A DNA stretch of 33,377 nt, from positions 1-33,377 of the IMG/VR virus record IMGVR_UViG_3300008117_000290; one strand, given 5' to 3'. Every line of letters begins with the position of its first letter. Position 1 is the first letter of the stretch. Origin of the DNA: a virus. The position numbers and the translations under genes are program-made. A model generated the notes under the pieces. That model worked only from the letters and a program-made list of their open reading frames with translations, had not been told where the DNA came from and searched no databases. Shown here piece after piece: positions 1 to 33,377 of this stretch.

Positions 1-1673
1 CTGGTTCGACTGTTGTCAGCATTGACCCAGAATAAACCAGCACCAGAAGCTTCAACAAGCATCAACTTGCCCAGCTTCATATCTGGAACAATCAAAGCAC
101 CTTCGACCATTGCACCCAACATATCGGAGATAACTCCCATATCGTCGTTGTAAATTTGTTCACGATTGAACACAACAACTTGGCCGCTGGTCGTCAACTT
201 GCTTCGATATTCGGTTTCTTTTCCGAAATCAGTCATTTCGAGCTTTCCGTCTCGTTGGACTTCGTCCCAAATCTTTCCACCACCTGGACGGAATCGTTGG
301 GTTTCACGGAAGTCCTTGTTGGATTCTTCCTTGAGATATCGAGTGGCAAACGGTGGGTTGATTTCCCATCGTTCTTCCATCATCATATCGGTGGTTTTCT
401 TGAGCAAGTTTGGCATATCAATCGTGCTGTAAGCAGCAGCATTGTTGATGTTCAAACTTACCTGTCGAGCCGAGTTCTTGACAGCTTCGCAAACAAATTC
501 AACGTCGCTGAATCCACCGAATCGTTTGGAAGTTTCAGCAGAGTTGGCAATGTTGACGAGTGTTTCGATAAAACCCCATCGTGGTCCATTGTTGGCAAGA
601 TCGATTGACTTTTTGTCGATACCGTGCTTTTCCAACGTCTCAGGTCGGACACCGCAGGAAAGAGCAAAGTGAGCCAAGATGTTTGAACCTTCACCACCCG
701 CACGATTTCCTGGGGTGAGGTTTGGTACTTGTGGTAGACCGTTGTTGAACATGTCGAGTTTGATGGAATTCTCGATAGCTTCGAGTCCGTGTCCCTCGTT
801 CAAGCACTTTTCGATGTGTGGCAAATACTTTGGGTATTTGTTCATCAACAAACTGATCTGGACGATCTCAGCTCGGTTGCCAGAATTTTGAACCACTGGG
901 GTAGGAGCAACAACAGGAATCACAACTGGTGCAGGAGCAGCCGGTGGTGCTGAGTTTTGAACAGGAGCAACAGGTGGAACAACAGGTGGAACAGCAGCAG
1001 GTGCTGGTGGAACCACTGGTGGGGTTGCAGGGGGTTCAGCGGGTGTAACAGGTAGAGCAGAGTTCAAAAGCATTGTAATAGCTTCCTTGTTTAAGAGACC
1101 GAAACTGGTATTGGAGTCACGACCACTCATTGTGACCGTCATTTCTTTGAGAACAGAGCGTTCAGCAACGTACATAGGTCCCGTTACTTCACGATTATTG
1201 ACAACACGTTTTTGTCCTTTTTCGAGGAACGTGATATCTTCTTGATTAGGGATTCTGAGTCCCATACTTGCTTCGAACGGAAATCCGTTCTTGATAGCTT
1301 GTACAACAGTATCGGTTGTACTCGATGGAAAAGATGTCACTCCCTCCCCAGAAAGATTTGTGTCAGTCTTACTGATCGTTGTCGAGTGGCCAATGGGTTC
1401 CCAATGCTCGTAAAGGATTGGTACGCTATTCTTGTAGGTAATACCTGACAAGCTATAGATCATTGGATGCTTGACACCGTAATCAGAAAGATTAACAGGT
1501 TGCCCAGAGTAACCAGCAAACGACAGCTTAGTTAGGCTGCCGTTCTCCCCTGGGGTGGTAGTAGTTGTTGTTGCAAGGTTGAATACTGCTTCGCCAACTG
1601 CTGGCTTGTGTTCTTCCGTCTTGCTGTTGTCACGAGCATTTCGGATGATCTCAAGCCGTTTTGTGAGCTTCAT
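1..1673 (-). CDS. Prohead protease-major capsid protein fusion (partial, runs off left edge)
   Basis: The open frame starts at ATG 1673 and stays open to base 1 (557 codons seen). Residues about 60-190 resemble an HK97/Mu-type prohead serine protease: YEHWEPIGH at 88-96 offers the catalytic His, and FEASMGLR at 133-140 offers the Ser (S136). Residues about 208-262 are a Pro/Ala/Val-rich linker. From about 400 onward the protein resembles Mu gpT-like major head subunits (WEINPPFATRYLKEE, DFRETQRFRPGG, WDEVQRDGKLE, FNREQIYNDDMGV). The protease would cleave scaffold and capsid during prohead maturation, and here it is probably released from its own polyprotein. Its ATG overlaps the portal stop (ATGA), so translation is likely coupled. 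The fold assignment is from motif recognition only; the linker and the fusion are directly visible. Confidence 0.8.
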   Translation of the reverse strand, partial: MKLTKRLEIIRNARDNSKTEEHKPAVGEAVFNLATTTTTTPGENGSLTKLSFAGYSGQPVNLSDYGVKHPMIYSLSGITYKNSVPILYEHWEPIGHSTTISKTDTNLSGEGVTSFPSSTTDTVVQAIKNGFPFEASMGLRIPNQEDITFLEKGQKRVVNNREVTGPMYVAERSVLKEMTVTMSGRDSNTSFGLLNKEAITMLLNSALPVTPAEPPATPPVVPPAPAAVPPVVPPVAPVQNSAPPAAPAPVVIPVVAPTPVVQNSGNRAEIVQISLLMNKYPKYLPHIEKCLNEGHGLEAIENSIKLDMFNNGLPQVPNLTPGNRAGGEGSNILAHFALSCGVRPETLEKHGIDKKSIDLANNGPRWGFIETLVNIANSAETSKRFGGFSDVEFVCEAVKNSARQVSLNINNAAAYSTIDMPNLLKKTTDMMMEERWEINPPFATRYLKEESNKDFRETQRFRPGGGKIWDEVQRDGKLEMTDFGKETEYRSKLTTSGQVVVFNREQIYNDDMGVISDMLGAMVEGALIVPDMKLGKLMLVEASGAGLFWVNADNSRT

Positions 1674-3109
1674 GATCGTTTCTTTCTTTTGCTTGAGTTC
1701 TGGGTAGTATCTTGTTCTGTCGGGTCATCTTCGGTGTCGTCTTCTAGATCGTCTTCGGGTTCGATTTGCATAAGACTCGAAGCTGCTGAGACTCGACCTA
1801 GTGTGAGTATCTTGCACATATCACTGTACTCGATTTCAAGTAGGTCTGCTTCTCTTTGAATTTCTCGACGTGGATTACGTCCTCGTTCAGTGTAGTACCT
1901 TACAAGGGTCGTAGCTCCGGTTTGAAGATCGGTAGCTGTGCTGTTGCTAATCTTCTGGGGGTCGGGGTGGTTAAACACTTGAGAATAACTCAGAGTGTAA
2001 GTCAGCCCTTCTTCCTTAACAAATCTTAGTGTTTTGTCTTGGAAGTAGTTTTTAGTCAATGCTCCGGCTGTGAACCAGAGCTTGACCATACGGTGTACTA
2101 CAGGAGCAAAATCTTCTCGGTCAATGTTGATGGTGTTCTTCCAAGGACCGAAGTCAACTTGGCTAGAAGCCATGTTGTATTGCCGACTGTTACCTGTCGC
2201 TAAGTTGACAGGCATGTTGATACAACGAGCAGCAGCACCAACCATTGCATCAAGAGCTTCTGCATCTTCGGCTGTAGTACCTGAATACGACAAACCTTCG
2301 AGCGTAGCTCCTGGGGGGAGAGTAGGGACCATTCCTGGTTCATACTCCCATTTGCCTGTAGGCATCCCTTCGGCATCTTCTTTACCCCAAACAGTTGGGT
2401 CAAGTTTAATAGCCATTGGAATTGCCGACCGAAACTCAGCACTACGTATGATCGAGTCTAAGTATCGTTTGACACTAGGGAAGATACAAAGTGCTGGGGA
2501 ACATTCGGGTATGCCACAGATCATGTTAGCATACTTATTTTTCCACCAAAGAATGATGTCTCGTACATCGTATTCTTCTCCGGTGTCTAAATAAATTCGA
2601 ATTGGTTCCCAGTTTTCACTGTACTCAATACCTTCCCACACTCGTTCAAGTGCTCCCTTTCCTACAGGATTTTGGAGCTTGTCAGCTGAGATAACACGGA
2701 GTCCGAGTTTGACTTCATGTTCGGTGTTGACCATTGCAAATGGAATTCCGATGCCTACTCCTGTTCTTGCTGCTTCTCGTCGAAGTAATCGAATAGAAGC
2801 ACCTAGACCAGTTTCTTGGCAGAATTGAACCCACTTGTCTTCGATGTTAGTATTAACGTCTGGGTCAGAAGCACCACCGATTAAAAGTGGTGAAGGTCCA
2901 ACACAGTCGTTAGACAAGGTATTGAGAATACCGTGGTAGTGACTACCTTCTTCATCTTGTTCCATTGAGACATACATGAGTTTTCTTCGAACCCAAGGAT
3001 GTCTAATAGCTTTTAAAAATCGGTCTCTTGGAACCTCGTTATAAGGTTGAATGTCTCGGTTCTTAATAAGACCGAGATTTCTGAGTGTGTTGAGAATCAG
3101 TCGTCGCAT
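1670..3109 (-). CDS. Phage portal protein, lambda family
   Basis: A 479-residue protein forming the dodecameric portal vertex through which DNA is packaged. It begins with a short basic segment (MRRLILNTLRNLGLIKNRD). Then comes the portal core: HGILNTLSNDCVGPSPLLIGG at about 59-79, the W..F......G helix, a GIGIPF segment and the clip/stem-like GIPECSPALCIFPSVKRY followed by RSAEFRSAIPMAI. The tail is Asp/Glu-rich (EPEDDLEDDTEDDPTEQD) and then Lys-rich. It lies between a small upstream protein (13-base overlap) and the protease-capsid gene (ATGA overlap), the usual packaging/head order. Length and order fit lambda gpB-type portals. Confidence 0.85.
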   Translation of the reverse strand: MRRLILNTLRNLGLIKNRDIQPYNEVPRDRFLKAIRHPWVRRKLMYVSMEQDEEGSHYHGILNTLSNDCVGPSPLLIGGASDPDVNTNIEDKWVQFCQETGLGASIRLLRREAARTGVGIGIPFAMVNTEHEVKLGLRVISADKLQNPVGKGALERVWEGIEYSENWEPIRIYLDTGEEYDVRDIILWWKNKYANMICGIPECSPALCIFPSVKRYLDSIIRSAEFRSAIPMAIKLDPTVWGKEDAEGMPTGKWEYEPGMVPTLPPGATLEGLSYSGTTAEDAEALDAMVGAAARCINMPVNLATGNSRQYNMASSQVDFGPWKNTINIDREDFAPVVHRMVKLWFTAGALTKNYFQDKTLRFVKEEGLTYTLSYSQVFNHPDPQKISNSTATDLQTGATTLVRYYTERGRNPRREIQREADLLEIEYSDMCKILTLGRVSAASSLMQIEPEDDLEDDTEDDPTEQDTTQNSSKRKKRS

Positions 3110-3321
3110 GGTGTAATTCCTACGTCCTCACAACTGCACCCGTTTTTGGGTACAGCTTTTACAAAAGTAAAATTATTGAGAAAAGGTTTTCGAGTACCAC
3201 GAGAGTTAGCTGCTTTAATCAGTTCAGCTAGACCGAACTGCTCAACTTCTTCCTGGGGTGTCTTTACTCGTTTTGGACCGACAGCGGCTTGGATAGCCTG
3301 AATGTTTTCTTCGAGTGACAT
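3097..3321 (-). CDS. Small protein upstream of portal, possible head-tail joining protein
   Basis: A 74-residue protein from ATG 3321. It ends 13 bases inside the portal gene, so the two are translationally linked. The first half is helical (MSLEENIQAIQAAVGPKRV, then EEVEQFGLAELIKAANS). The C-terminus carries CSCEDVG and a final CDD. In lambda the small joining protein gpW is encoded immediately before the portal, and the size and place match, but I see only weak sequence resemblance (helix, RV, then a D/LxxLI helix). The function is therefore positional inference. One copy of the CCTGGGG motif (3252-3258) encodes T-P-Q-E here. Confidence 0.7.
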   Translation of the reverse strand: MSLEENIQAIQAAVGPKRVKTPQEEVEQFGLAELIKAANSRGTRKPFLNNFTFVKAVPKNGCSCEDVGITPCDD

Positions 3322-3328
3322 GGTAGTC

Positions 3329-5254
3329 CTAGTTGTTGAAAGCTGCGTACTTCTGAACTGCTGGACCGTATAGAATTATACGACCTGTTGTGGAGTCTCT
3401 GAGAGACCAAAACATACATTTGTCGGTTTGTTCGGCAACTGATGAAAGAGTTACAGAAACAGAGTTAGTGACTGAGGTTAGTCCTGTGACTACCAACAAG
3501 TTCGTCTTGTCAGATTTCTCTAAACAAAACGTCATCGGTTGACCGTCGAAAGTACCACTAGCTAAAGTAATTAAGTAAGTACGAGCTTCATTGTTGAAGA
3601 ATGTAAATACATTTTTCTCTAGCAGAGTATTATCGAGGTTGATGAATGCTTCTGGTGTAACAGTAACAGAAGCTCCACCACCACCCCCACCCCCAGAAGG
3701 AGCCAAACTCAAGGCTTGAACGGTCCAACGAACTAGACTTGTACCAGAACCGACAAGCATAAATGCAAGGTCTGTTACTAGCTGAGCCGTGGCTGCCGGT
3801 ATCCTGGTGAGTAGTGTAGTTGTGTTGGCTAGTGTGTCGAATAGGTTTTTACCTGCTGTGTTGACACCAAAGCTAGACAAGTTTTGAGTCCACACTCCTG
3901 TTACGATTTCTGTTACTGCATCAGTAGCTAATGCACTAGCGGTCATTACATTCGGTTGCATTTGGTGAACATCAACTTGTACATGCCCAGAACCAGCACC
4001 TGTAACTCCAATCGTCCTGTTGGAATTGTTGCTAATAATCCATCTGTCACCAAATGAACCGTTGACCCAACCACCATTAGGCATAGCATTCATAACAGCA
4101 TCACGGTTTTGGTTAGCTGTAGGAATGTCTCCGACTGCTGCTGGAAGTGCTGGTAGTCTGGTGTCAATACTGTTGACAGTTGTTTGTACTGACTGTAAAA
4201 CAGTTAGTGTGTCATAGTTGACGACAGACCCGATCCACTCAATATACCGACTTTCTCCTGACACTGTACCGGACCCAACAATTCGCAAGTTTTCCTGGGG
4301 GTGGGCATTTGATACAGAGTAGGTGAATATGTATCGACCCGTGGACGGGTTAGTGACACTACTGAGATTGGCAGAGCGTGACGTGCCAGCAGCATTTGAA
4401 GCTGTAACTGTTGGTAGTGTGTCAAGGTTGACAAGTTTTCCTTCATTATCTCTAACGACAATCGTGAAGGCGTAAAGTGTTGATCCAGCATCGGGAATCT
4501 CCAGGAGAGGGGAACCGTAAATGTTAATGAGAGCAGACAGGTTATTGAGGTTTCCAATTGCCGTATTAACAGTGGAAATTGGAAGGTCAAGATTGAGCAG
4601 TCGAGTGTCGTTGGCAAGGAGTGGGTTGGTCGGAATAAGGTTGATCGGAGCATTGAGGTTTGCTAGCCGGGCATCATTTGACAACAATGGTGTTGTTGGA
4701 ATCGAACCTACTGCTGCATTTAGGTTGTCAACAATCAATTTACCTACACTACCAACTGTTGTGAGTGTGTTTGTGAGTGTGGCAAATATAGCTGCAATAC
4801 CAGCACTAGATAAAACAACTCCAGTTGCTTGAGTAATGTTGGTTGGACTAGCTATTGATCCTGGGAAGGTGACAGCAGCAGAAGCATTGGCCGTTTGACC
4901 AGCAACCTGAGTTACGTTTGCTTTGACGTTTCGATTCTCAAGTGAGAACGACTTGAGCTTGACCCTGGTTAAATCTTTGCTATCTACTGTTCCTGCGGTG
5001 AAAACTACGTCGTAATCTTCACCTACGACATATGCAGCATCAGCAGACGTATCAATGACTACCATGTGAAACCCTGCCTTACCATCGTAATCAATGGTAG
5101 TGGTGATACCAGCAGTAATCTCCGTGGTGCTGTTTTTGTAAACAGCAAACGTAGGAGCAATGCTTGGAGTAGTCGGAACTAAGGCTTGGTTGAGTGTATT
5201 GAACTTGATCCGAATACCCGAACCAACTGGGAAATCACCGTAATAGTCGTTCAT
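3329..5254 (-). CDS. Tail fibre/baseplate-type structural protein with poly-Gly hinge
   Basis: A 641-residue protein rich in Thr, Asn, Val and Ala with no enzymatic motif. The N-terminus (DFPVGSGIRIKFNTLNQALVP...) resembles fibre or baseplate N-terminal beta domains. The middle has imperfect repeats built on P.TPLLSNDARLANLNAPI and PTNPLLANDTRLLNLDLPI (about residues 190-230), plus Ig-like segments. A GGGGGGG hinge near residue 530 precedes a C-terminal beta domain (EAFINLDNTLLEKNVFTFF ... MFWSLRDSTTGRIILYGP). It lies just downstream of a beta-helix adhesin with its own Gly7 run. I infer a virion fibre or receptor-contact protein; the exact place in the tail is unknown. Confidence 0.65.
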   Translation of the reverse strand: MNDYYGDFPVGSGIRIKFNTLNQALVPTTPSIAPTFAVYKNSTTEITAGITTTIDYDGKAGFHMVVIDTSADAAYVVGEDYDVVFTAGTVDSKDLTRVKLKSFSLENRNVKANVTQVAGQTANASAAVTFPGSIASPTNITQATGVVLSSAGIAAIFATLTNTLTTVGSVGKLIVDNLNAAVGSIPTTPLLSNDARLANLNAPINLIPTNPLLANDTRLLNLDLPISTVNTAIGNLNNLSALINIYGSPLLEIPDAGSTLYAFTIVVRDNEGKLVNLDTLPTVTASNAAGTSRSANLSSVTNPSTGRYIFTYSVSNAHPQENLRIVGSGTVSGESRYIEWIGSVVNYDTLTVLQSVQTTVNSIDTRLPALPAAVGDIPTANQNRDAVMNAMPNGGWVNGSFGDRWIISNNSNRTIGVTGAGSGHVQVDVHQMQPNVMTASALATDAVTEIVTGVWTQNLSSFGVNTAGKNLFDTLANTTTLLTRIPAATAQLVTDLAFMLVGSGTSLVRWTVQALSLAPSGGGGGGGASVTVTPEAFINLDNTLLEKNVFTFFNNEARTYLITLASGTFDGQPMTFCLEKSDKTNLLVVTGLTSVTNSVSVTLSSVAEQTDKCMFWSLRDSTTGRIILYGPAVQKYAAFNN

Positions 5255-7403: not shown

Positions 7404-7730
7404 TTACCATTCGTAAACGACAATAAAATCTTTGTCTGCTGCCTCAATGCCGCCAAGTTTGATTTGTACCGAACTTAAACCAGCGGTATATTCTGGCGGA
7501 ATGTTGATTGATCTGACGGTAGCACCTACCGTAAAAGACAAGGCTGTGTTTGAACTGCCTTGAAACAAAGTGTCATAAGTTCCATCGGCAATACCACCAC
7601 TTAATGAAAAGCTAGTGGCTACAGCCATAACTGGTGTTCGAATTCTGACCACCTTTGCTCCTGGGGGGAGAGGAAGTGGTTCTGAGTTAGAAGCTCCAGC
7701 TAAGACTCGAATTGTGTGTGGTTGAATCAT
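7404..7730 (-). CDS. Small beta-rich protein, possible virion decoration protein
   Basis: A 108-residue protein. I chose ATG 7730 because it overlaps the upstream stop as ATGA; an in-frame TTG at 7745 lies inside the upstream gene and is less likely. The sequence reads as a beta sandwich: IRVLAGASNSEPLPLPPGAK, VVRIRTPVMAVATSFSLSGG, VGATVRSINIPPEYTAG, VQIKLGGIEAADKDFIVVYE. There is no signal peptide. Such short all-beta proteins in phage structural operons are often decoration or minor tail proteins, but the family is not recognised. Confidence 0.65.
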   Translation of the reverse strand: MIQPHTIRVLAGASNSEPLPLPPGAKVVRIRTPVMAVATSFSLSGGIADGTYDTLFQGSSNTALSFTVGATVRSINIPPEYTAGLSSVQIKLGGIEAADKDFIVVYEW

Positions 7731-8503
7731 GGTATGTTTGGGCAAACTCCGTTAACACAAAGACCTCGAACTACAGCTTTCATACATTCTCGGTACGCCC
7801 CAACGTCTTGTGGATTGTACTTTGCTATTTCTCTGTCAACTGGGATTCTCCACACGTTGAGCCAATCTTTGCCTTTACTATCGATTTGTCGAATCGAAAA
7901 GCAAAGTTCGATTGTAGCAGTTACTGCACCCTTTGCTTCTGGTAGGGTTGGTGGTAAGCTGTTGATTGTCTTGATTAGGTTTGTTTGGAGGAGTTGGGTT
8001 GTTGAAGCATCTTTTAAGGTATCAATACCCGTTCTAGATACTACTCGTAGACTGTCAAAGTTTGGAGAAGGAACTGGAGTAGGAGTAGGAACCGGAGTAG
8101 GAACTGGGGTTGGCCCTGTTCCTGGGGGAGTAGTAGGAAGCATACCTACTACATCTATTGTGTGGAATTGGTAGTCAATAGCTGCTGTCTTGTCTGCAAC
8201 AATCAACCCAAACTGGTATTTGCCTGGACTCGGAATGGAAAAGAAGATGTTCGAACCACACGTCGCTGACTGTGATTTTAGTTCTTCTGGTATGATCCAA
8301 ACTTTGTTTTCACCGACGGCATCCTGATGTGATAGAAAAACCAGCGTACCAGCCAATGCTGTACTTGGCCCCTTTATTGTTGCCTTCACAGTCGGAGTCT
8401 CTTGCCCTAGTGCGACCTGAGCAAAGAAAACCAAACAAGCAAACAACATCGTAGGAGCAATGTTGCGTACTTGTACAAATACCAGAGGGTTGAAAGTTTT
8501 CAT
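7727..8503 (-). CDS. Secreted protein with Ig/PKD-like domain and Pro-Thr linker
   Basis: A 258-residue protein from ATG 8503. It has an N-terminal signal peptide: basic start, hydrophobic TMLFACLVFFAQVALGQ, likely cleavage after ALG or ALGQ near residue 34. Residues about 38-118 look like a beta-sandwich domain (VKATIKGPSTALAGTLVFLS ... GKYQFGLIVADKTA). A linker of repeated P-T-P-V-P follows at about 128-144. The C-terminal domain contains four cysteines (CFSIRQ, RECMKAVVRGLCVNGVC). Export from the host or display at the envelope is expected. The secretion signal is clear, the function is unknown, and PTPVP linkers are common in planctomycetal secreted proteins. Confidence 0.7.
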   Translation of the reverse strand: MKTFNPLVFVQVRNIAPTMLFACLVFFAQVALGQETPTVKATIKGPSTALAGTLVFLSHQDAVGENKVWIIPEELKSQSATCGSNIFFSIPSPGKYQFGLIVADKTAAIDYQFHTIDVVGMLPTTPPGTGPTPVPTPVPTPTPVPSPNFDSLRVVSRTGIDTLKDASTTQLLQTNLIKTINSLPPTLPEAKGAVTATIELCFSIRQIDSKGKDWLNVWRIPVDREIAKYNPQDVGAYRECMKAVVRGLCVNGVCPNIP

Positions 8504-8524: not shown

Positions 8525-9001
8525 TTAATCGTTTTTGGGAGACTCGACGTACGACTCAGCAGTTGCCGGCTTTGTAGTTGGAGCTTTAACAGAACCAGTA
8601 TCAGACACGAGTTCGGCACCCATCGTTGACAGGTTTGGTGCTGGAGCTGGTTGTTGCTTTTTCTTGCGGTTCTCCATGATGGCTTTGATAAGCTCAAGGA
8701 TAATTGGGATAAGAACTTCCCAACCTTGAGTACCAACTGTTGGTCCACCAGAAGCAATGCTGACTTCCAAGCTGGCAACTGCCGATTCAAGGTCAGCACA
8801 AAGATCGTCAATGTCTTTGACATTGAGAGTGCCGACTTCGTCCTGGGGGAGAGTTGGTGGTGAAAGCTTGGCAAGCAGACAACCAGCAACCCACAAGGCT
8901 TGCTTGACGGTTTGTACGTTGACTCCGTTACGGACATCAGCAACAAGGCTGAGGACACACGAAAGAGAAACGTCGTTTGGGAATTGAGCTGAACAGGACA
9001 T
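8525..9001 (-). CDS. Hypothetical protein with amphipathic helix
   Basis: A 158-residue protein. The start is ATG 9001 (MSCSAQFP), preceded by AAAGGTG as ribosome binding site; a TTG 27 bases upstream has no such site. Residues about 15-55 are helical and Cys-containing. A strongly hydrophobic/amphipathic stretch WEVLIPIILELIKAIMENRKKKQQ sits near residue 95, followed by a low-complexity Pro/Ala/Thr tail. The short hydrophobic helix next to a basic cluster could be membrane-associated. I do not recognise the family. Confidence 0.65.
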   Translation of the reverse strand: MSCSAQFPNDVSLSCVLSLVADVRNGVNVQTVKQALWVAGCLLAKLSPPTLPQDEVGTLNVKDIDDLCADLESAVASLEVSIASGGPTVGTQGWEVLIPIILELIKAIMENRKKKQQPAPAPNLSTMGAELVSDTGSVKAPTTKPATAESYVESPKND

Positions 9002-16452: not shown

Positions 16453-16479
16453 GTTACTCTCCTGGGGTGGGTTAGGTGT

Positions 16480-19110: not shown

Positions 19111-19208
19111 TGAGTCAGACAGGAATCGAACCTGTGTTCACGCCTTAAAGGGGTACCACACACATTACTGTGCTCCAATTTCGCGTTCTACCACTGAACT
19201 ACTGACTC
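19111..19208 (-). tRNA. tRNA-like element with intact acceptor, D and T arms but no normal anticodon arm
   Basis: Read on the minus strand, GAGTCAG (19208-19202) pairs with CTGACTC (19118-19112), plus an optional eighth pair. The D arm is GTTC-AGTGGTA-GAAC. The T arm is ACAGG-TTCGATT-CCTGT, with the canonical TTCGA loop. Between D and T arms lie 49 bases instead of the usual about 23-40. I found no 5-bp stem with a 7-base loop there, so no anticodon can be assigned. A CACA-GTAA-TGTG hairpin is inside. It could be a tRNA with an insertion, a long-variable-arm tRNA that I mis-fold, or a tRNA mimic. Confidence 0.6.
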
Positions 19209-21826: not shown

Positions 21827-22675
21827 CTACAAATTGTTGTCTGCTTTTCGGGTGGCATCTTCTGGGGTGAAGGTGCCGGTTGGGTATCGTTTACGAAGTT
21901 TGGCTTCGTTTGCGTTGAGTATGTCTTGGAGAGTCAAGTTAAGGTCAACAGTAGCAAACACAGTGATGAATGCCCAGAATCCACGAATGTATATCGGGAG
22001 TAGTGACCAGTCTGCTGTACGGTAGTACAACACACGTTTGACATAATCCAGGAAACCTTCAACGTACTGTGGAAAGTCGATGGTTTCGTAATTCTTGTAC
22101 GTTGGGAGTAACTCGACGTAATCGTTACACAGCATTACAACAGAGATTTCCATCACAGCCAGTTGCATACGTTTGTCGAGGGATTCGGCAGACAAGTAGT
22201 CTCCGTGTTTTTCATTCAAAGCACGGTCGAAGATCAACGTGTACGGATGCTTGGCGGGGCCTTCTTTGGTCAGCAAGTCAATGATTTCATTTTCATCACG
22301 ACCAAACAATTCCTGGGGTGGAATGAGTTCGGGGTAGTCTTTTTTGTACGTTACATCGACCGGGTCCCGGAATTCTGGACGATGCATCGTTGTTGCAACG
22401 TACTTGTCCATGGTGTTTTCCAACATGGCGACGTAGTAGCAAAGGTCTCCCAGTTCTTTGATGTATGCTGTTCGAGCTGGCGATCCTTGTGAAGTGTCTC
22501 CACCGAACAGGAAGTCGAGTCGAGCTTCACACACTTCGAATGCTTCTCCGGCGATGCCGAGAGTACAGTGGTTAAAGTCGTCACGAACGATATGTTCTGG
22601 GTCGGTGAATTGGCTAGCTGCGAACGTGGTAAGTACGAAGTTGTGGTACGGGTTGGTACGAGGACGAATTTTCAT
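21827..22675 (-). CDS. MazG-like nucleoside triphosphate pyrophosphohydrolase
   Basis: A 282-residue all-helical protein. The metal-binding helices of MazG-like enzymes are visible: LGIAGEAFEVCEARLDF (E..E) at about 39-55 and YIKELGDLCYYVAML (E..D) at about 71-85. The C-terminus has NANEAKLRKRYPTGTFTPEDA, the characteristic N..KL..RYP..F tail of phage MazG-like proteins. It would hydrolyse (d)NTPs and may affect nucleotide pools or alarmone levels. An extra central helical domain of about 120 residues is unusual. The start ATG overlaps the preceding stop (TAATG). Confidence 0.75.
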   Translation of the reverse strand: MKIRPRTNPYHNFVLTTFAASQFTDPEHIVRDDFNHCTLGIAGEAFEVCEARLDFLFGGDTSQGSPARTAYIKELGDLCYYVAMLENTMDKYVATTMHRPEFRDPVDVTYKKDYPELIPPQELFGRDENEIIDLLTKEGPAKHPYTLIFDRALNEKHGDYLSAESLDKRMQLAVMEISVVMLCNDYVELLPTYKNYETIDFPQYVEGFLDYVKRVLYYRTADWSLLPIYIRGFWAFITVFATVDLNLTLQDILNANEAKLRKRYPTGTFTPEDATRKADNNL

Positions 22676-23742
22676 TAGTTTTCTCCGTGGAGTTCTTTGA
22701 ACAGGTGAGGGACTGGAACAAGGGATTCGAGTGGTAAAGCTCCAGTAAGATACTGATAGTAGTCTTTCTTGTACGAGTCTGTTCGAGCAGGGTCGAACAA
22801 ACGTAGCGGTCGTTTGTGGAACAAGTGATTGTAGCAGTCAGGATTAAATGGATCAAAACTGTCGGCTAACGTGTACTCGTACATGTAACACAAACTGTCA
22901 ATGATGGGATCAAGAACCTCCTTTCGATATTGGGTCACGACTTCCCTGGGGTGGGTACTGATATGCTGGTCTACCCAGAATATCTTGTTACGAGCAACTG
23001 GGTACTCTTTGTAAGCAGTACAGTTGTTGTACAGACGTTCGATGTAGAACTTGTGTCGTTCTCCAGCTTGTCTTGGTGGACAGTTCCATTGGACTTCTGG
23101 TATACGAAGAATATCGTACACAACGTGGTCACAAAATTCACCTAACAGTTCCATAGCATGAAGATACAGATTGAGTTGAAGATCGGTGCGAATTTCTTGT
23201 CGATGCTGTAGCTTGTCGTGCCTTCCCTTACACTTGTGTTCGACAAGTATACGAGATTTGTCGAGTGATAATCCCATAGGGACTGAACTGTAGTCAAAGT
23301 TACCGTTCCGTCTACCAATACCGTCAATCTTACCCATGAGTGAGATTGTGAAGTTCTTGGTACGATACGGTTCTTTGAACTGACGTTCTGTCTCAACATC
23401 GAAGTACAATTTGAATCTATCGTCATACAACTTCATCATTTCCTGGACGGAGTGAATGGTTGTTGGATCGATAGATACGTATTTGCTTTCTTCTTGCTTG
23501 AGAACTTCTTGAACAGTAGTTCGATGTTCTTCGGACAGGCTATGGTAGAGTTCAGGCCACTGGAGTGTAACCTCTAGTAACTTGTGCATCATGTTACCCC
23601 ACATCAAGTTTTGATTGAGTTGGGATGGTTCTTCAAGTCCGAGTCCGTAATAAAGTACGAAACTGAACGGGTCTTGAAGGTATTTCGACAAAAGGGATTG
23701 TGTTATTCCTCCGTCGATTGGGCCTCGCCATTTCCATTGCAT
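22675..23742 (-). CDS. PD-(D/E)XK nuclease, RecB/Cas4-like
   Basis: A 355-residue protein. The RecB-type nuclease signature is present: LMWGNMMHKLLEVTL at about 46-60 (conserved His), a D-containing strand MGKIDGIGRR, SRILVEHKCKGRHDKLQ (E-x-K) and QEIRTDLQLNLYLHAM (Q...Y motif). These are the catalytic pieces of the exonuclease found in phage recombination modules. It sits between the MazG-like gene and a protein of unknown function. Its start overlaps the upstream gene by 40 bases. I cannot say whether it carries an iron-sulfur site; only isolated cysteines are visible. Confidence 0.75.
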   Translation of the reverse strand: MQWKWRGPIDGGITQSLLSKYLQDPFSFVLYYGLGLEEPSQLNQNLMWGNMMHKLLEVTLQWPELYHSLSEEHRTTVQEVLKQEESKYVSIDPTTIHSVQEMMKLYDDRFKLYFDVETERQFKEPYRTKNFTISLMGKIDGIGRRNGNFDYSSVPMGLSLDKSRILVEHKCKGRHDKLQHRQEIRTDLQLNLYLHAMELLGEFCDHVVYDILRIPEVQWNCPPRQAGERHKFYIERLYNNCTAYKEYPVARNKIFWVDQHISTHPREVVTQYRKEVLDPIIDSLCYMYEYTLADSFDPFNPDCYNHLFHKRPLRLFDPARTDSYKKDYYQYLTGALPLESLVPVPHLFKELHGEN

Positions 23743-24731
23743 GTCGGTATCTCTCCTGGTGTGTAGATGATAAAATTTTCCCCAACTTTAGGGTCAGAAA
23801 GTGGTTTTAGAACTGGCGGTGTTTCCTGGGGTGGGGTTCTGTAGGTGGTCGGTGTTGGTCGAACTTGGAGGTCTTTTGCACAGTACGAAGTTGGTGGTGG
23901 TACTGGAGTGTTTGCAAGTACAAGTTCTCGTACACGCACTGATTGTTTTCGACCTTCTAAGACACAATACAGATGTCCTGCCAAATCTTCAACAGTTTTT
24001 ATTACTTTGTAGATAGGTTCGTCATAAGCATGGATATGTTGTACAGTGTCTCCGGGTTGAAAGACATATTGTCGGTAAACTTGTGGGTGTTCCTTAAGAG
24101 AAAATGACTTACCGACAAGTTCTGACTGTACATGCAAAGAAATACGTTCGTTCATTTTTGTTCTGTCAGAAGGGTAAATCTTTTCTCCACGTTCCAGTGG
24201 TCTGTAGTCTGACCAGTTGAAAGACTTCTCTTTAGTATCGGTCTCGAAGTCTAATCGACTGTCTGGTTGTTGAAGAATTTTGGCTAAGTTTTTTGCAACT
24301 GTTTCTGTATCATAGGCAACTTGCTGGGGAGTGTTTGCAAGTACAGCGTCAGATCGAACTTGTGCAGCTTTTGCACCTTTCTCTTGCATGGCTTGTCGAA
24401 AGTTGTCAAGATTTTTTGTAAGAACAGGGTCAGGTTCTTTGTTGCAGATCAGGGTTTCATTTAACGCAGGTATGTCGATACTTTTTGGTTGGTGCAGGGG
24501 TAGTCCGTCAGGGCAGTTGTCGTAACCGACTTGTAGTGCGTCTGATACGTAGTCGATGGGGTCACGGACTATGATGTTGGTAATCTTATCACCGATACAA
24601 AAGTCAATTCTTGTACCCACAAGTCCAATGTCGTTTTCTCGGAATTTGAATTCACAAAAAGCAACGATTGCTTGGGGGTCGATAAAGACACGCAGGTTTT
24701 CGATGGTCATGAATTGAACAAAAGGTTTCAT
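23703..24731 (-). CDS. Hypothetical protein with SH3-like segment
   Basis: A 342-residue protein from ATG 24731 (MKPFVQFMTIENLRVFIDPQ). A longer reading from 24908 would overlap the UDG gene and is rejected. The N-terminal about 65 residues form a small beta domain (VFIDPQAIVAFCEFKFREND). A helical middle follows, with VLTKNLDNFRQAMQEKGAKA and TVAKNLAKILQQPDS. Then comes an SH3/KOW-like part (YVFQPGDTVQHIHAYDEPIY, VLEGRKQSVRVRELVL) and a Pro-rich tail. The SH3 part resembles those fused to the MazZ-like enzyme. Function unknown; it is encoded between UDG-like and nuclease genes. Confidence 0.65.
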   Translation of the reverse strand: MKPFVQFMTIENLRVFIDPQAIVAFCEFKFRENDIGLVGTRIDFCIGDKITNIIVRDPIDYVSDALQVGYDNCPDGLPLHQPKSIDIPALNETLICNKEPDPVLTKNLDNFRQAMQEKGAKAAQVRSDAVLANTPQQVAYDTETVAKNLAKILQQPDSRLDFETDTKEKSFNWSDYRPLERGEKIYPSDRTKMNERISLHVQSELVGKSFSLKEHPQVYRQYVFQPGDTVQHIHAYDEPIYKVIKTVEDLAGHLYCVLEGRKQSVRVRELVLANTPVPPPTSYCAKDLQVRPTPTTYRTPPQETPPVLKPLSDPKVGENFIIYTPGEIPTCNGNGEAQSTEE

Positions 24732-24741: not shown

Positions 24742-25452
24742 TTACCTTGTGGTGAGAGTTTGGATAAAGTTTGTGAGTTTGTTGACTTCTCTACGGCATT
24801 CCAAAAGTTTGTATTCTTTTTGTAGGAACTTGTAAAGAGGTTCTCGGAACAAAGTGTGAGTAGGGTAACGGAGAGAGACAAATTGGTTTCGTTTGACGGA
24901 GTTTCCAACGTAAACTACACCGTGAGGTTTGAAGGAACCAGCTAGTTCGGTAATATGCTCAGCACAAAGATTGACCTCTTTTGAGCTAGGTGGTCTACCT
25001 TGATTGATAACGTCCGCATACGTTCCTGGGGTGGAAAGGAATTCATTGGCTTCATCTTGTTCGGTAGACAAGAATTCTTTTCCGTCAGGTTTGTAGAGTC
25101 GAACGATATCTTTGGTTTCACAACACACGGTGTGTGTCATGCAGTAGTCGATGCTTAGACGAAGTTCTGAGATTATAAAGTCAAGAACTCGTCCGGCAAA
25201 TCCAGTAAAAGGAATCCCTGTGTTAGCGTCGGTTCGGTCTGGGGCTTCTCCGATGAACAAGAGTCGTTTGGGGTTGGTGTTTCCGTAGGTGTGCTTTCCA
25301 TCCCTTCTAACGGCCACGATTCTGCGTCCTGTGGCAAGTAAGCATCGGTTGCACTTACCCCAGTCGGCATGGCCTGTATGACTATTGTAGTAGAGCTTAG
25401 TGCCTGGTATCTTATGCCCGACAGGATTTTGTTTATCATTTCCAGACTGCAT
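24742..25452 (-). CDS. Uracil-DNA glycosylase superfamily protein (family 4-like, Fe-S)
   Basis: A 236-residue protein. Residues 34-48 (CNRCLLATGRRIVAV) give the first Cys pair and the R..V typical of family 4/5 enzymes. FIGEAPDRTDANTGIPFTGFAG at 67-87 is the GEAPG-E-G-PF-G-AG active-site loop. HTVCCETK and a later LCAEHI provide the remaining iron-sulfur cysteines, separated by an insertion of about 40 residues. VVYVGNSVKR replaces the usual G..A. It probably removes uracil or another modified base. The first about 280 bases overlap another frame that encodes an HTH protein. Confidence 0.75.
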   Translation of the reverse strand: MQSGNDKQNPVGHKIPGTKLYYNSHTGHADWGKCNRCLLATGRRIVAVRRDGKHTYGNTNPKRLLFIGEAPDRTDANTGIPFTGFAGRVLDFIISELRLSIDYCMTHTVCCETKDIVRLYKPDGKEFLSTEQDEANEFLSTPGTYADVINQGRPPSSKEVNLCAEHITELAGSFKPHGVVYVGNSVKRNQFVSLRYPTHTLFREPLYKFLQKEYKLLECRREVNKLTNFIQTLTTR

Positions 25453-25697: not shown

Positions 25698-26001
25698 CTG
25701 ATTTTAGGTCCGCTGACATAAAGTAAAGAATGATCCAGCCAGCCATGACCAGATCGTTGTGTTTTCTGTAGTCTCGTTGCATTCCTTTGTAACTCAAGTG
25801 TCCTGTACCATAACCTTGCAGTTCGACTACTATCTTTTCCTGGGGGAAGCAGAAGTCTAGTTCCCACTTGTTTGATAAGTGAACTGTGTGGTGGTGGACA
25901 ATGGGGTAGGTGCTGTGAGATTTCCATACTTGGTGAAAGTTTTCTTCGAAGTTACTGTCGTAGATTGCTTTCTTGGGTCGGTATGCTTTTTTCATAATCA
26001 T
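25543..26001 (-). CDS. PD-(D/E)XK / VSR-like endonuclease (DUF559-type)
   Basis: A 152-residue protein. I take ATG 26001 (MIMKKAYRPKK); ATG 25995 and an upstream TTG are alternatives. NKWELDFCFPQEKIVVELQGYG is the D-x-(P)-E-L-x-G active site of DUF559/VSR-like nucleases, followed by D..KHNDLVMAGWIILYF, the typical D..+...L...GW..L.F tail. Such small nucleases act in repair, restriction or host-DNA attack. Both ends overlap neighbours (25952-26278 and 25173-25697). Confidence 0.7.
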   Translation of the reverse strand: MIMKKAYRPKKAIYDSNFEENFHQVWKSHSTYPIVHHHTVHLSNKWELDFCFPQEKIVVELQGYGTGHLSYKGMQRDYRKHNDLVMAGWIILYFMSADLKSDERRTIDTIKFVLEGRHPGIRKFDYSQTQRSELQPNNLAEAARRLLNKRPY

Positions 26002-27187: not shown

Positions 27188-28387
27188 TTAGTCAAGGTTT
27201 CCTGTGTGGCGTGATGGATTTAGCTGATCTGAAACAGATCCATCTAAACCATCCTTGGTTTCGGTGGGGAGGTCTTTGTCGGATTCTTCTTTGGCAAAGT
27301 AGTGGATTCCGACTGGGCATCGAGGAATACCTGAGTCGGTTAGTCCCTCGAATTCGACTTTGAGCCACTTACCGATGTAGTTCTCTTTGTAGACAAGAAT
27401 TTGTTGTCGTTTGGATCGAGTACCACGGAACGAACAACGAAATTCTCTGCCGTGTGAAGTAGCACAAACAAACACACCTTCCTTATTTGTTCCTGGGAGG
27501 ACGTCGATGATTTCAAATTCTGAGTCGACAAAAGACTTCATCTTGAGTAGACCGGCAGATCGTTTGTTGATTTCGTATGGAGCATTGGCGTCACGAATCA
27601 TCATGCCTTCGTACTTGAGAGACTTGTACTCGTCAAATTGATCTTGAAGTTCTTCATCGGTAGGGCAAGTATCGTACAAGATGGTATGAACAACCTTGAA
27701 TGGACACTTGCGAGAGAAGTAGCGTACTTTCTGGAAAGGGTGTGAAGGATCGGTACGGACTTTGATGTAAAAATCTTCCATGATGCTCACAACTCGTTGA
27801 ACTTCTTCGATACGAGCTGAAAATGGTGCCTCAGTGTCGATAATGTCGAATACGTGGTACTCGATTTCTTGACAAGCAATCAGGTCGGGTGTGTTACGCA
27901 TGACATACGAGTAAATCGTCTGTAATGGTGTGTTTGGGATAATGAGTTCACCGTCGAGCTTGATACCGTCTGGTATTTTGCTCAAGTACAACTCGATGTG
28001 AGGACAACTTGTGAATAGTTGGTTCTTTCTTGACAAGAGTCCTTCCTTGGACATCACACAACGAATACCGTCCAGCTTTGGTTGGAGTGCTGTCGAGTGG
28101 AACTTAGGGTTCCGCTTGTATTCCTGGGCGAGCATTGGAAGGGAAGGTTGTGATGTTGGTATTGATCGAGAGTAACCTTTACGGTCAATCTGGTAGTTGA
28201 TTCGGCTTTGGTAGTCAGAGAGCTTGGATTCTGGGAGAGTTTGACTACCGTGCTGTACTTCTTCTGCTCCTGGGAAGGTAGACTTACGTCCCCATGTTAG
28301 TACGAGTAGAGAAGTTTCTTCGTTGTACTCGGCTGTCCACCAAGTAAGGTCGTTGAAGTTGTTGAGGCAGTAGAGTGTTGTTTTCAT
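27188..28387 (-). CDS. ATP-dependent DNA ligase with N-terminal WGR-like domain
   Basis: A 399-residue protein from ATG 28387 (MKTTLYCLNNFNDLTWWTAE); a longer reading was rejected because it crosses the leader and the gene at 28429. Residues about 15-72 fit a WGR domain (TWWTAEYNEETSLLVLTWGR ... QIDRKGY). The ligase core has LQPKLDGIRCV with adenylated K104, LDGELII at about 144-150, KYEGMMIRDA and LLKMKSF, and a C-terminal OB-fold region (GKWLKVEFEGLTDSGIPRCP). It seals nicks in phage DNA. WGR domains bind nucleic-acid ends, so the fusion may target the ligase to breaks. Confidence 0.85.
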   Translation of the reverse strand: MKTTLYCLNNFNDLTWWTAEYNEETSLLVLTWGRKSTFPGAEEVQHGSQTLPESKLSDYQSRINYQIDRKGYSRSIPTSQPSLPMLAQEYKRNPKFHSTALQPKLDGIRCVMSKEGLLSRKNQLFTSCPHIELYLSKIPDGIKLDGELIIPNTPLQTIYSYVMRNTPDLIACQEIEYHVFDIIDTEAPFSARIEEVQRVVSIMEDFYIKVRTDPSHPFQKVRYFSRKCPFKVVHTILYDTCPTDEELQDQFDEYKSLKYEGMMIRDANAPYEINKRSAGLLKMKSFVDSEFEIIDVLPGTNKEGVFVCATSHGREFRCSFRGTRSKRQQILVYKENYIGKWLKVEFEGLTDSGIPRCPVGIHYFAKEESDKDLPTETKDGLDGSVSDQLNPSRHTGNLD

Positions 28388-28428
28388 AGTGTAAAGTGAG
28401 AGAGTGAGAGTGATAACAAAGGTGAGAG
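28388..28428 (-). promoter_or_regulatory. CTCTCAC-rich leader of ligase
   Basis: On the minus strand three CTCTCAC-type units precede the ligase ATG, with no canonical Shine-Dalgarno. Similar pyrimidine-rich CTCTCAC leaders lie at 28843-28920 and 31603-31674, and GCTCTCACAA precedes the helicase start. Confidence 0.4.
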
Positions 28429-28842
28429 TTAGCCTACAACTTTGATGGTTTTGGTGTTGACAAAGTTTTCGGCAGAGGATTGTAAGTTGTCGACAACGAT
28501 CGAGCCGGATGAACCGTCTCGGTTTTTGAATGTTATATGGAAACTTGGATTTCGATACAACATTTTGTCGAGTGCAAATAAGTTTGTTAGCACGACTAAC
28601 AACAAAGAAGCCATTTCTCCTCTTGTTTTGATGATGTCGTTTGTTTCTTCGCAAGTTGGTTTCTGGGGATACTGCACAGCTGTATCAAAGTAAAGCGGTG
28701 CTGATACCCAGGCTTGCAAAAGAGGAGACAACGGATTGTCTTGGTATTGTTGTGCAAAGAATTGAAAACAATCTTCGCTGATTACCTCAATGTAAGCACG
28801 TTTTTGTTCAATCGGAAGGGAATGGTATTGTTCTTCATGCAT
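28429..28842 (-). CDS. Hypothetical protein
   Basis: A 137-residue protein from ATG 28842. Helical N-terminus (IEQKRAYIEVISEDCFQFFA), middle helix (GEMASLLLVVLTNLFALDKM) and C-terminal beta part (FHITFKNRDGSSGSIVVDNL). The LLLVVLTNLF stretch is hydrophobic but bracketed by charges and probably buried. Family unknown. It is encoded between the ligase and the 28921 gene, with a CTCTCAC leader. Confidence 0.6.
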   Translation of the reverse strand: MHEEQYHSLPIEQKRAYIEVISEDCFQFFAQQYQDNPLSPLLQAWVSAPLYFDTAVQYPQKPTCEETNDIIKTRGEMASLLLVVLTNLFALDKMLYRNPSFHITFKNRDGSSGSIVVDNLQSSAENFVNTKTIKVVG

Positions 28843-29263: not shown

Positions 29264-30796
29264 CTAGTCGTTGAAAAGGTAGTACAGGTCGGACTTGGTA
29301 CGGGTGTGAGCAACAAAGTCTACGTTCTTTTCTTGCTCGATTTGGTCAGGAGTTTCGGCTTTGGACGATGGAACTGGTGGATTGAGGAGTCCAACCACCT
29401 TAGCTTCCAAGCCTTTAGCTTTGTGAACTGTTGACAAAACAACGTGTTGGGAGCCTTTTGGTGGCTGTAAAAGTTGTTTTAGCATTGGTTCGAAGTCATC
29501 AAGACTGTTGCAAGACTTGAGAACGTGTCGAATACAGTCAAACTTGTCTTTGTTGGCTTGCTTTGCCATAGCATTGCCAACTTCGAGAGTACGTTGTTCG
29601 TACTGTGCAAGTTTGAGTAGTAAATCTTCGATGTTGCTAGCTCGTCGGTTGGCAACTGTGCTGATTAGGTTCTTAATCAGGCTACCACCGAGAGATTTGC
29701 ATGGAATACCAGCTTTGACGTACTGTAAAGCTAGTTTGACCAATGGAGCATTGTATCGACACACAATCATAGGATTTTTGTCCTTAGAATTGGCATGTTC
29801 ACTCAACTCGTTGAGGGTAGTTTGGGTCCATTCGATGATGTTTTCGGCTACAATTCGACCAATAATACCGTCTTTTTTGCCCTCAATGGTACGAATTTGG
29901 GCCGTAGGACGGATTTTATTAGCCAAAGCAGCTATGTTTGGTGGTAGCCGAAACGACAATCTGAGGGGTAAATTAGCCACACAATACTCACTGATACGTT
30001 CCATAGAGTGTGGATCAGCACCATTCCAGCCGTTAATTGCTTGGTTATTGTCACCTACAAACACCAAATTCTTGGCTAATTTGAGGCTAAGAGCCAGTCT
30101 AGCTGGTGACAAGTCCTGACATTCGTCAACAAAACCGATTTCGTGTGGTGGAGTCTTGATTAAGAACAAAGCCAACCACACTTGCATCATGTAAGTGATA
30201 CCGATTCGACGATCGACAGTTTTCATTGCTCGAATAATCTCCGAGCATTGAGAAATCATATCTGGGTGGATTTTGTACGGTGCAAGCTCACTGTACTTTG
30301 CTTGCAGGGCATACAGGTTTTCCTGGGTGATGTCGAGTAGTTCTTCTTGGAGCTTCTCGACGAAACGTAGAGAACTGATCCAGTCGAATCGTCGTTTGTT
30401 TTGACTCATAGTTTGACCTGTGAGCTTCTCGACAATAGCTTCTCCGGCTCGTTCGTTAACTGGAACATAACCGTAGGCTTTTTGGATGATCGAGTAACCC
30501 CAACCGTGGTGAGTTTTTACGTCAGTATCTTTGTGGATACGAGGTTTGAGGTCATCGACCGTGGTGTTATTGTAGGCCATGTAGATCGCTTTATGGCAAT
30601 CAAGACCAACCACGGCCACGTCCGGTTTCCTGGGGAAGTTGCCTCTACACCATTGGTAGATAGCAGCTTGTTCTGGTGTGTTTTGGAACCGAGTAAGCCA
30701 CATGACAGGGTTTGCTGACTTGTAGTACAAGTAAGCATCGACGATTGTACTGGTTTTACCGCAACCAGGTCCAGCGTTAATTAGTAGGTTTGGCAT
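29264..30796 (-). CDS. Superfamily 1 (UvrD/Rep-like) DNA helicase
   Basis: A 510-residue helicase. Motif I is AGPGCGKTST at 8-17, motif II VDECQD at 223-228, motif III GDNNQAINGW at 248-257, motif IV-like LRLSFRLP at 278-285, motif V VVLSTVHKAKGLEA at about 455 and motif VI-like VAHTRTKSDLYYL near the C-terminus. It unwinds DNA during replication or recombination. It is shorter than UvrD (about 700), lacking most of the 1B/2B domains. ATG 30796 is preceded by GCTCTCACAA and overlaps the upstream gene by 20 bases. Confidence 0.87.
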   Translation of the reverse strand: MPNLLINAGPGCGKTSTIVDAYLYYKSANPVMWLTRFQNTPEQAAIYQWCRGNFPRKPDVAVVGLDCHKAIYMAYNNTTVDDLKPRIHKDTDVKTHHGWGYSIIQKAYGYVPVNERAGEAIVEKLTGQTMSQNKRRFDWISSLRFVEKLQEELLDITQENLYALQAKYSELAPYKIHPDMISQCSEIIRAMKTVDRRIGITYMMQVWLALFLIKTPPHEIGFVDECQDLSPARLALSLKLAKNLVFVGDNNQAINGWNGADPHSMERISEYCVANLPLRLSFRLPPNIAALANKIRPTAQIRTIEGKKDGIIGRIVAENIIEWTQTTLNELSEHANSKDKNPMIVCRYNAPLVKLALQYVKAGIPCKSLGGSLIKNLISTVANRRASNIEDLLLKLAQYEQRTLEVGNAMAKQANKDKFDCIRHVLKSCNSLDDFEPMLKQLLQPPKGSQHVVLSTVHKAKGLEAKVVGLLNPPVPSSKAETPDQIEQEKNVDFVAHTRTKSDLYYLFND

Positions 30797-31674: not shown

Positions 31675-31854
31675 TCAAGAGTTACGAGTAGCTGGGTCAC
31701 CGTCTGGGTCGTTTCCTGGGGTGGGTGGTGGTTGGATAGATGGGAAGCAGACAGAGCCTACTATGATTCCGGTAAGGAACGTGAAAGCACAAGACAAGAT
31801 GGTTGAAACGATGAGAAGATTGGTGTCGATGGTGAACATGAGTGAGATAGGCAT
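31675..31854 (-). CDS. Small membrane protein (59 residues)
   Basis: The frame reads MPISLMFTIDTNLLIVSTIL, then SCAFTFLTGIIVGSVCFPSI, a Pro-rich turn and DPDGDPATRNS. It has one strong membrane segment at about 13-36 with a short acidic tail. It overlaps the end of the 31761-32114 gene by 94 bases in another frame. The Pro-rich turn contains a CCTGGGG motif copy. It is a holin-size protein, but there is no lysis gene near it. Confidence 0.6.
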   Translation of the reverse strand: MPISLMFTIDTNLLIVSTILSCAFTFLTGIIVGSVCFPSIQPPPTPGNDPDGDPATRNS

Positions 31855-32729: not shown

Positions 32730-32746
32730 GTATCATTTTGTGATAC
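32730..32746. promoter_or_regulatory. Palindromic operator-like site C, GTATCATTTTGTGATAC
   Basis: It has the same arms (GTATCA/TGATAC) and near-identical centre as site A at 10119-10135. It overlaps the stop codon of the 32733-32933 gene, as site B overlaps its own upstream stop. No clear -35/-10 pair was found beside it. Confidence 0.5.
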
Positions 32747-32933
32747 TTGACTGTGCTTGCTTTAGCATTTCTGCTATGCTAGGCTTGGGCTGCACTTGTT
32801 TCCTGGGTGGAGAAAGAGATAGTGCTTTGTGGGTGTTAGCTGCTGGACCGTAGTTTTTAGGTTTAGCACCTGAACGATTGTGGTGGATGTCGATGAGATA
32901 CTTACCACGAGGTTTACGAATGATACGAACCAT
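32733..32933 (-). CDS. Small basic protein
   Basis: A 66-residue protein, MVRIIRKPRGKYLIDIHHNR, with a basic middle and a helical end (SIAEMLKQAQSSI). The leader AAGGAAACTCGTT is identical to that of the 32945-33112 gene. It may bind nucleic acid; the family is unknown. It carries a CCTGGGT variant of the motif. Confidence 0.6.
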   Translation of the reverse strand: MVRIIRKPRGKYLIDIHHNRSGAKPKNYGPAANTHKALSLSPPRKQVQPKPSIAEMLKQAQSSITK

Positions 32934-32944
32934 AACGAGTTTCC

Positions 32945-33112: not shown

Positions 33113-33118
33113 AACGAG

Positions 33119-33145
33119 TTTCCTTAAACAAGGGACGAAACAAAC
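33119..33145 (-). promoter_or_regulatory. Leader element CGTCCCTT-N-AAGGA, copy 4
   Basis: On the minus strand it reads TTTCGTCCCTTGTTTAAGGA, ending 10 bases before the ATG at 33112. CCTT/AAGG arms are present. Confidence 0.5.
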
Positions 33146-33151
33146 GGAGAG

Positions 33152-33377
33152 TTAGACGAACTTGACACAAAGCCCATGAGGTGCAAGTAGATTATTGAGG
33201 GGGACCAGCAGTTCTTTCTGGGGGTAGACGTCTAACTTGATGATGGACTGAGTTAGAGGACTGTCGAGGATAGATCGACGTAGTTGGACTGTAAAGGGTG
33301 GAACGTGTCTTTTGAGTTGAGAAGGGAATTTTGTTTTCTCAGGAATTGAAATACCACGAGCCAACAAAAGACAGCCG
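33152..33377 (-). CDS. Hypothetical protein, partial (runs off right edge)
   Basis: The frame is open to the edge, so the start is outside the window; an in-frame TTG at 33367 is probably internal. The visible about 75 C-terminal residues (PSQLKRHVPPFTVQLRRSIL, QSIIKLDVYPQKELLVPLNN) are beta/helix mixed with no recognised motif. One CCTGGGG-type copy (33218) encodes Y-P-Q-K. Confidence 0.5.
   Translation of the reverse strand, partial: GCLLLARGISIPEKTKFPSQLKRHVPPFTVQLRRSILDSPLTQSIIKLDVYPQKELLVPLNNLLAPHGLCVKFV

Follow-up and report, generated by a model that had tools for sequence, protein, structure and literature searches.

What does a short G-rich sequence signify when it recurs along the whole of a phage genome and points almost always in one direction? 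The question is raised by IMG/VR virus record IMGVR_UViG_3300008117_000290, whose 33,377 bases (hereafter the window) contain the hexanucleotide CTGGGG 41 times on the plus strand, at positions from 710 to 33223, and 6 times on the minus strand. These figures are exactly those that an initial annotation of the sequence had estimated as about 41 CTGGGG against about six CCCCAG. The window derives from a tailed phage with a lambda-type terminase and portal and a family-A DNA polymerase, and in the longest open reading frame (ORF) calls made for this analysis every gene bar one doubtful 228-bp ORF lies on the minus strand. Motifs that are strand-polar across a whole genome are rare, and each known example (Chi, the FtsK-orienting polar sequences KOPS, uptake sequences, and nick sites) indicates a DNA-processing activity. 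The findings presented here indicate that the motif very probably acts as a true directional signal, a recognition sequence with strand polarity along the entire genome, and that the identity of its reader can be inferred only.

Enrichment, polarity and layout of the motif

On the plus strand the consensus is 5'-TTCCTGGG(G)N(G)(G/A)-3', 9–12 nt in length, corresponding to (C/T)(C)N(C)CCCAG(G/A)AA on the coding strand, with TTCCTGGGG as its short core form; the string reported initially is thus real and the consensus slightly longer. Strand ratios, plus to minus, are 15 to 0 for CTGGGGTG, 20:1 for TCCTGGGG, and 30:1 for TCCTGGG. Codon-preserving and dinucleotide-shuffled controls had been proposed in the initial annotation, and the motif exceeds both. 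In 100 dinucleotide shuffles with both strands summed, TCCTGGGG is expected 0.5 times and found 21 times (20 on the plus strand) and TCCTGGG is expected 2.8 times; no shuffle reaches the observed count of either. In the codon null, where synonymous codons are shuffled within each gene such that proteins and codon usage are kept, the expectation on the coding strand is 1.1 for CCCCAGGA and 2.7 for CCCAGGA, against 17 and 27 observed and shuffle maxima of 4 and 7, respectively. A stricter null that also keeps the dinucleotides at codon junctions raises these expectations to 7.4 and 11.3. The z-score of CCCCAGGA in the window is 11.7, whereas the largest 8-mer z in synonymously shuffled windows is only 4.2–5.8. 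Codon or dinucleotide bias as the cause is ruled out by the two codon-preserving shuffles together with the dinucleotide shuffles. The reverse orientation stays near the codon null, with 6 coding-strand CTGGGG observed and 3.8 expected; one orientation is enriched, about tenfold, and the opposite one is not avoided. A protein motif is excluded as well, as had been claimed, by the occurrence of sites in all three codon phases (27, 14, and 7 of 51 merged window sites) and outside called genes (the remaining 3), which places the signal at the level of nucleic acid.

A comparison with related phages, likewise proposed at the outset, finds the motif in all ten further IMG/VR contigs (35–53 kb) retrieved by terminase and primase searches. 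Their terminases are 50–85% identical to that of the window. An additional record (G009), apparently a near-duplicate of G008, was left out of counts; completeness is not certified for the window or for these contigs. The clade consists of uncultured phages, apparently from lake water or other freshwater as judged from contig identifiers rather than from a record field. The earlier suggestion was of a new recognition sequence for this phage or host; the motif extends beyond this phage, and these ten relatives, one distant relative, and one unrelated fragment also carry it. Over 506 kb (eleven contigs including the window) TCCTGGG occurs 422 times on the non-coding strand and 51 times on the opposite strand, and in nine of nine genomes tested both CCCAGGA and CCCCAGG lie far above the codon null. 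Among 7-, 8-, and 9-mers alike, the highest-ranking word belongs to the motif family, both in pooled groups and in the window, G006, G008, G013, and G014 scanned singly, with 8-mer z-scores of ∼11–16 in the first three and weaker ones in the last two. The flanks drift: CACCCCAGGAA is found in most genomes, CTCCCCAGGAA in G008, whose genes lack CACCCCAG, and CCCCAGAA in G014, which is low in G+C, while one relative uses the variant CCCAGAA. The motif is not present in contigs whose primase is only 24–26% identical. Two distant contigs contain a TATCCGTATCC repeat, which resembles a tandem repeat and is not a comparable motif.

The layout of the sites is independent of gene structure. In nine genomes 611 sites lie in genes (1.63 per kb) and 68 outside (1.81 per kb), all three phases are represented, and relative position within genes is near uniform (Kolmogorov–Smirnov p 0.12), without association with gaps or with where genes start or end. 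Mean gaps between sites are 416–873 bp and are underdispersed, with coefficients of variation of 0.57–0.84 compared with ∼0.97 for random placement in most genomes (P below 0.02 in six of nine genomes and 0.06–0.08 in the other three). Very short and very long gaps are both depleted, and in the four genomes compared the gaps are more even than those of 5-mers of similar count. For pairs less than 75% identical, aligned genes retain CCCAGGA at 36% of places as opposed to 10% for 7-mers of equal G+C content; the few other equally frequent 7-mers, several of which overlap the motif, have a mean conservation of 30%. Genes without clade homologs carry 0.60 sites per kb and core genes 0.94 (0.61 and 0.74 in G008), and newly acquired genes therefore appear to gain sites, perhaps with a lag. 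Taken together, these observations point to a nucleic-acid signal whose density, spacing, and strand are under selection: a 9–12 nt motif at ∼1–2 sites per kb on the non-coding strand, maintained genome-wide by selection at the nucleic-acid level. It is evenly spaced and strong enough to override codon choice in eleven genomes.

Polarity is uniform over about 50 kb. At fourfold sites the coding strands favor C over G (skew −0.29 to −0.39), so that the non-coding strand, plus in the window, is G-rich; provided that this skew is replicative, the G-rich form of the motif lies on a leading-like strand. Because all genes lie on one strand, transcription and one-way replication predict the same motif orientation. 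Stretches of clearly mixed orientation are short gene-poor regions, chiefly repeat regions located at one contig end in G004 and G005.

Several features of sequence composition adjoin these observations. In G004 (L032:1–1141) a purine-rich AG/GAGCTC low-complexity non-coding region contains the motif in both orientations, and a similar stretch occurs in G006 at ∼1470–2091. In G005 (L035:100–440) and the matching end of G003, iteron-like direct repeats of ∼46 bp (TAGCATTAG...) occupy a non-coding contig end and may mark a replication origin. The pattern GGGNAGGG, corresponding to KOPS of E. coli, is distributed 55:5 in favor of the G-rich strand clade-wide and 1:1 in the window, and may simply overlap the 3' tail of the motif.

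The window sites are listed below. The coordinates and reading phases given in the initial annotation generally hold, as does the placement of the copy at 16462 outside genes; the copy at 25026 reads P-Q-E in a 60-aa ORF and not T-P-G, and that at 31716, also given as T-P-G, lies outside called genes.

708–717, plus: motif TCCTGGGGTG
2309–2316, plus: motif TCCTGGGG
3251–3260, plus: motif TCCTGGGGTG, P-Q-E phase
4293–4300, plus: motif TCCTGGGG
4859–4865, plus: motif TCCTGGG
7659–7666, plus: motif TCCTGGGG
8120–8127, plus: motif TCCTGGGG
8841–8848, plus: motif TCCTGGGG
11539–11548, plus: motif TCCTGGGGTG
12512–12518, plus: motif TCCTGGG
13081–13087, plus: motif TCCTGGG
13769–13775, plus: motif TCCTGGG
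14610–14617, plus: motif TCCTGGGG
15906–15913, minus: sole opposite-orientation TCCTGGGG in the window
16039–16046, plus: motif TCCTGGGG
16460–16469, plus: motif TCCTGGGGTG, within the 27-bp gap upstream of the primase gene
17478–17485, plus: motif TCCTGGGG
18138–18144, plus: motif TCCTGGG
18710–18717, plus: motif TCCTGGGG
21066–21075, plus: motif TCCTGGGGTG
22311–22320, plus: motif TCCTGGGGTG
23824–23833, plus: motif TCCTGGGGTG
25024–25033, plus: motif TCCTGGGGTG, P-Q-E in a 60-aa ORF
25838–25845, plus: motif TCCTGGGG
27491–27497, plus: motif TCCTGGG
28122–28128, plus: motif TCCTGGG
28268–28274, plus: motif TCCTGGG
30321–30327, plus: motif TCCTGGG
30628–30635, plus: motif TCCTGGGG
31714–31723, plus: motif TCCTGGGGTG, outside called genes
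32801–32807, plus: motif TCCTGGG
896, 1550, 1955, 6768, 10945, 21862, 22946, and 27140, plus: examples of weaker members (CTGGGG not within TCCTGGG)

The copy at 16460–16469 supplies an AGGAG just upstream of the GTG start of the primase gene and may double as a ribosome-binding site. Despite this AGGAG, a ribosome-binding or gene-boundary element as the general explanation is ruled out by the near-uniform position of sites within genes.

Occurrence beyond the clade and a proposed Chi-like reading

Screening of IMG/VR with two motif-bearing 14-mers returned 192 loci, among which two contigs outside the clade stand out. One (G023, 18 kb) is a distant relative whose structural genes are 25–48% identical to those of the clade. 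Relative to a first-order Markov expectation it contains CCCAGGA 11 times (1.4 expected) and TCCTGGG 10 times (1.2 expected), with both orientations present; the strong form TCCTGGGG is distributed 8:2 towards the non-coding strand, and TCCTGGG on the sense strand is in excess too, at 8 compared with 2.0. The other (G018, 10 kb, 53% G+C, with HK97-type head genes) has no detectable homology to the clade and carries TCCTGGG 10:1 on the non-coding strand, where 0.4 and 0.6 are expected. Its departure from the codon null is weaker (10 observed, 2.5 expected, at most 7 in 200 shuffles), and evidence from this contig, picked as it was from a motif screen, is suggestive rather than conclusive. Two relatives of it were examined and do not carry the motif in numbers. 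The presence of the motif in an unrelated phage fragment and in a distant relative favors a reader shared between phages, that is, a host factor.

The window genes that bear on the identity of the reader are the following.

14419–16452, minus: primase-helicase with a DnaG-type zinc ribbon and Walker A, candidate reader if the motif is a priming site
20990–21793, minus: AAA_24/Sak4-like recombinase
22675–23742, minus: PD-(D/E)XK nuclease, for which a low-confidence model gives AddAB and a Cas4-type protein as best fold matches
27188–28654, minus: ATP-dependent DNA ligase
29264–30796, minus: UvrD-type superfamily 1 helicase

The single likeliest reading, offered tentatively, is that the motif is a Chi-like polarity signal for a host helicase-nuclease. 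An enzyme of the RecBCD/AddAB kind would enter phage DNA at a free end, degradation would halt where the G-rich motif is met in its active orientation, and the strand would be passed to a recombinase, which may be the phage Sak4-like protein or host RecA; sites in one orientation every 0.4–0.9 kb would thereby limit loss from an end open in infection, replication, or packaging. A less likely reader would be the phage's own UvrD helicase together with its PD-(D/E)XK nuclease. A Chi-like role is suggested because the motif is a G-rich directional site on a leading-like strand and the phage encodes a recombinase. Chi in E. coli is likewise G-rich and sits on the G-rich strand. Over-representation of Chi is reported for phages that lack a RecBCD inhibitor (PMC3784561), and a blind scan of the recombinase-less E. 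coli phage mEp460 gives Chi at 16:4 with a z-score of 4.8, mostly in the right part of the genome. Like Chi (GCTGGTGG in E. coli and lambdoid phages), the window motif is short, asymmetric, over-represented, and orientation-biased, and it occurs inside and outside genes. Also consistent with such a role are the phage-encoded helicase, the phage nuclease with its fold of the AddAB/Cas4 class, the enrichment beyond codons with no avoidance of the reverse orientation, the uniform polarity, the equal density in coding and non-coding DNA, the even spacing, and the conserved positions. Were the motif Chi-like, it would reveal the Chi used in an uncultured group of bacteria and offer a means of assigning hosts to phages.

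Several observations weigh against this reading. The known Chi sequences of E. coli, P. syringae, Lactococcus, and S. aureus are absent or rare (GCTGGTGG occurs 17 and 22 times on the two strands of the clade; GCGCGTG and GCTGGCGC are absent), although Chi differs between host groups and the comparison is not decisive. The window motif has another sequence and an even genome-wide spread, and both its enrichment and its polarity exceed what Chi shows in the tested phages of E. coli, whose Chi sites are concentrated near one end; it is stronger than any benchmark signal scanned (tf, mEp460, T7). Relative to the direction from terminase to tail, its G-rich strand is opposite to that of Chi in mEp460. 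The unrelated fragment is a single 10-kb contig from the 14-mer screen, and codons explain part of its excess. A search for the host by alignment of the primase and terminase to 84,980 species genomes found no relative. As for a phage-encoded Chi system, the model of the nuclease (predicted local distance difference test score, pLDDT, 55) matches AddAB with an E value of 3.5e-5 and also matches Cas4-type proteins and RecE, and this predicted fold similarity is too general to serve as proof. It is conceivable, if rather doubtful, that the array of evenly spaced one-strand sites serves the phage's own long-site primase or an AddAB-like helicase-nuclease with its own Chi, in which case codon choice throughout the genome would be under selection for a directional DNA-processing signal of a type that has not been described in phages.

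Alternative readers

The zinc-ribbon primase, conserved across the clade, suggests another although unlikely explanation, namely that the motif directs lagging-strand priming by a phage primase-helicase requiring an extended template site. On the template 5'-TTCCTGGGG-3', initiation at CTG by a primase of the DnaG type would yield the purine primers pppAGGAA, and with replication running one way the sites would have to lie on a single strand with Okazaki-like spacing. The density and more-even-than-random spacing on one strand are compatible with Okazaki fragments, the plus strand is G-rich at fourfold sites as for the lagging-strand template of rightward forks, and the core CCCAG stays where the second G varies. 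Primase sites are similarly strand-polar and evenly spaced under one-way replication; however, known primases recognize about three nucleotides, T7 shows no comparable enrichment or genome-wide selection, and the forks would oppose transcription. The same motif in the unrelated fragment and in a relative by structural module, and its absence from distant relatives with the 24–26% identical primase, also argue against priming. The AlphaFold model of the window primase (pLDDT 45) is unusable. The closest known pattern is that of the strand-specific interruptions of T5, phiKMV, and tf, where a ∼9-nt motif in all contexts lies on one strand genome-wide, as the window motif does near-exclusively rather than exclusively; by analogy a phage nickase would cut the non-coding strand at the motif, which is improbable to a similar degree. 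In tf, 14 nicks lie in 5'-TACTRTGMC-3' on one strand only regardless of gene direction, and phiKMV-like phages are nicked on the non-coding strand (PMC3517423). Run blind on tf, in which the nicks were mapped experimentally, the codon-null scan used for the window ranks the nick sequence TACTGTGAC first among 9-mers, at 9:0, and the window phage encodes a DNA ligase. Nevertheless, the sequences differ, none of three known nick motifs is enriched, the window motif is more degenerate and several times denser (30–50 sites compared with 14 in tf), and no nickase candidate was identified. If the motif is a priming or nicking signal, it would show plainly that processing sites at intervals are selected for in the genome of a phage, or bear on the unexplained nicks of T5 and tf.

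With unidirectional transcription a signal in the transcript would look exactly like the observed pattern, and a protein of the host or the phage might bind CCCCAGGAA, carried by the mRNAs about every 600 nt, perhaps sustaining transcription or protecting long polycistronic RNA. In both the clade and the unrelated fragment the sense strand carries the C-rich form, and in the distant relative it does so for the strong form. Against this rather improbable reading, the sites show no tie to gene starts, ends, or gaps, and the distant relative has its excess of sense-strand TCCTGGG (8 compared with 2.0); a CsrA-type protein binding GGA is unlikely since one relative uses CCCAGAA. Repressor stoperators of cluster A mycobacteriophages such as L5, repeated operators that stop transcription, are asymmetric, in one orientation to transcription, and present in more than 20 copies per genome (PMC9283540), and the window motif shares these three properties. 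That it is a stoperator is nevertheless very unlikely: stoperators are 13-mers bound by the immunity repressor at promoters and in short intergenic regions, whereas 611 of the 679 sites are intragenic with similar density outside; the known 13-mer is absent, and comparison of the window proteins other than those of small ORFs with PHROGs and Pfam recognized no repressor or integrase. Arrays in one orientation also exist through immunity to type III restriction enzymes. As regards EcoP15I, T7 has 36 CTGCTG and no CAGCAG, a complete strand bias of a short sequence. This explanation, the least probable of those weighed, predicts avoidance of the opposite orientation as in T7, where CTGCTG is not among the enriched 7–9-letter k-mers despite the 36 to 0 bias; in the window the opposite orientation is found 6 times with 3.8 expected, and it is the forward orientation that is raised.

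Host and further observations

No description of this motif was found in the literature searched. Microcystis was considered as a host, some contigs being likely to come from a bloom, but this idea gained no support, as three Microcystis phages lack the motif. In the window and G001–G008, GCGC is nearly absent (0–5 per genome; pooled 12 with 77 expected) and many 6-bp palindromes are strongly avoided, for example CTCGAG with 6 found and 122 expected, suggesting hosts rich in restriction systems. On the minus strand of the window, 19111–19208, an Rfam tRNA match spans 98 nt (51 bits) with no ARAGORN call, and may contain either an insertion or an extended variable arm. In G008 (L045:2384–11790), ∼ten genes without a homolog in most other clade members form a block, with repetitive, beta-helix, and metalloprotease-like proteins among the products, possibly a receptor-binding or appendage module.

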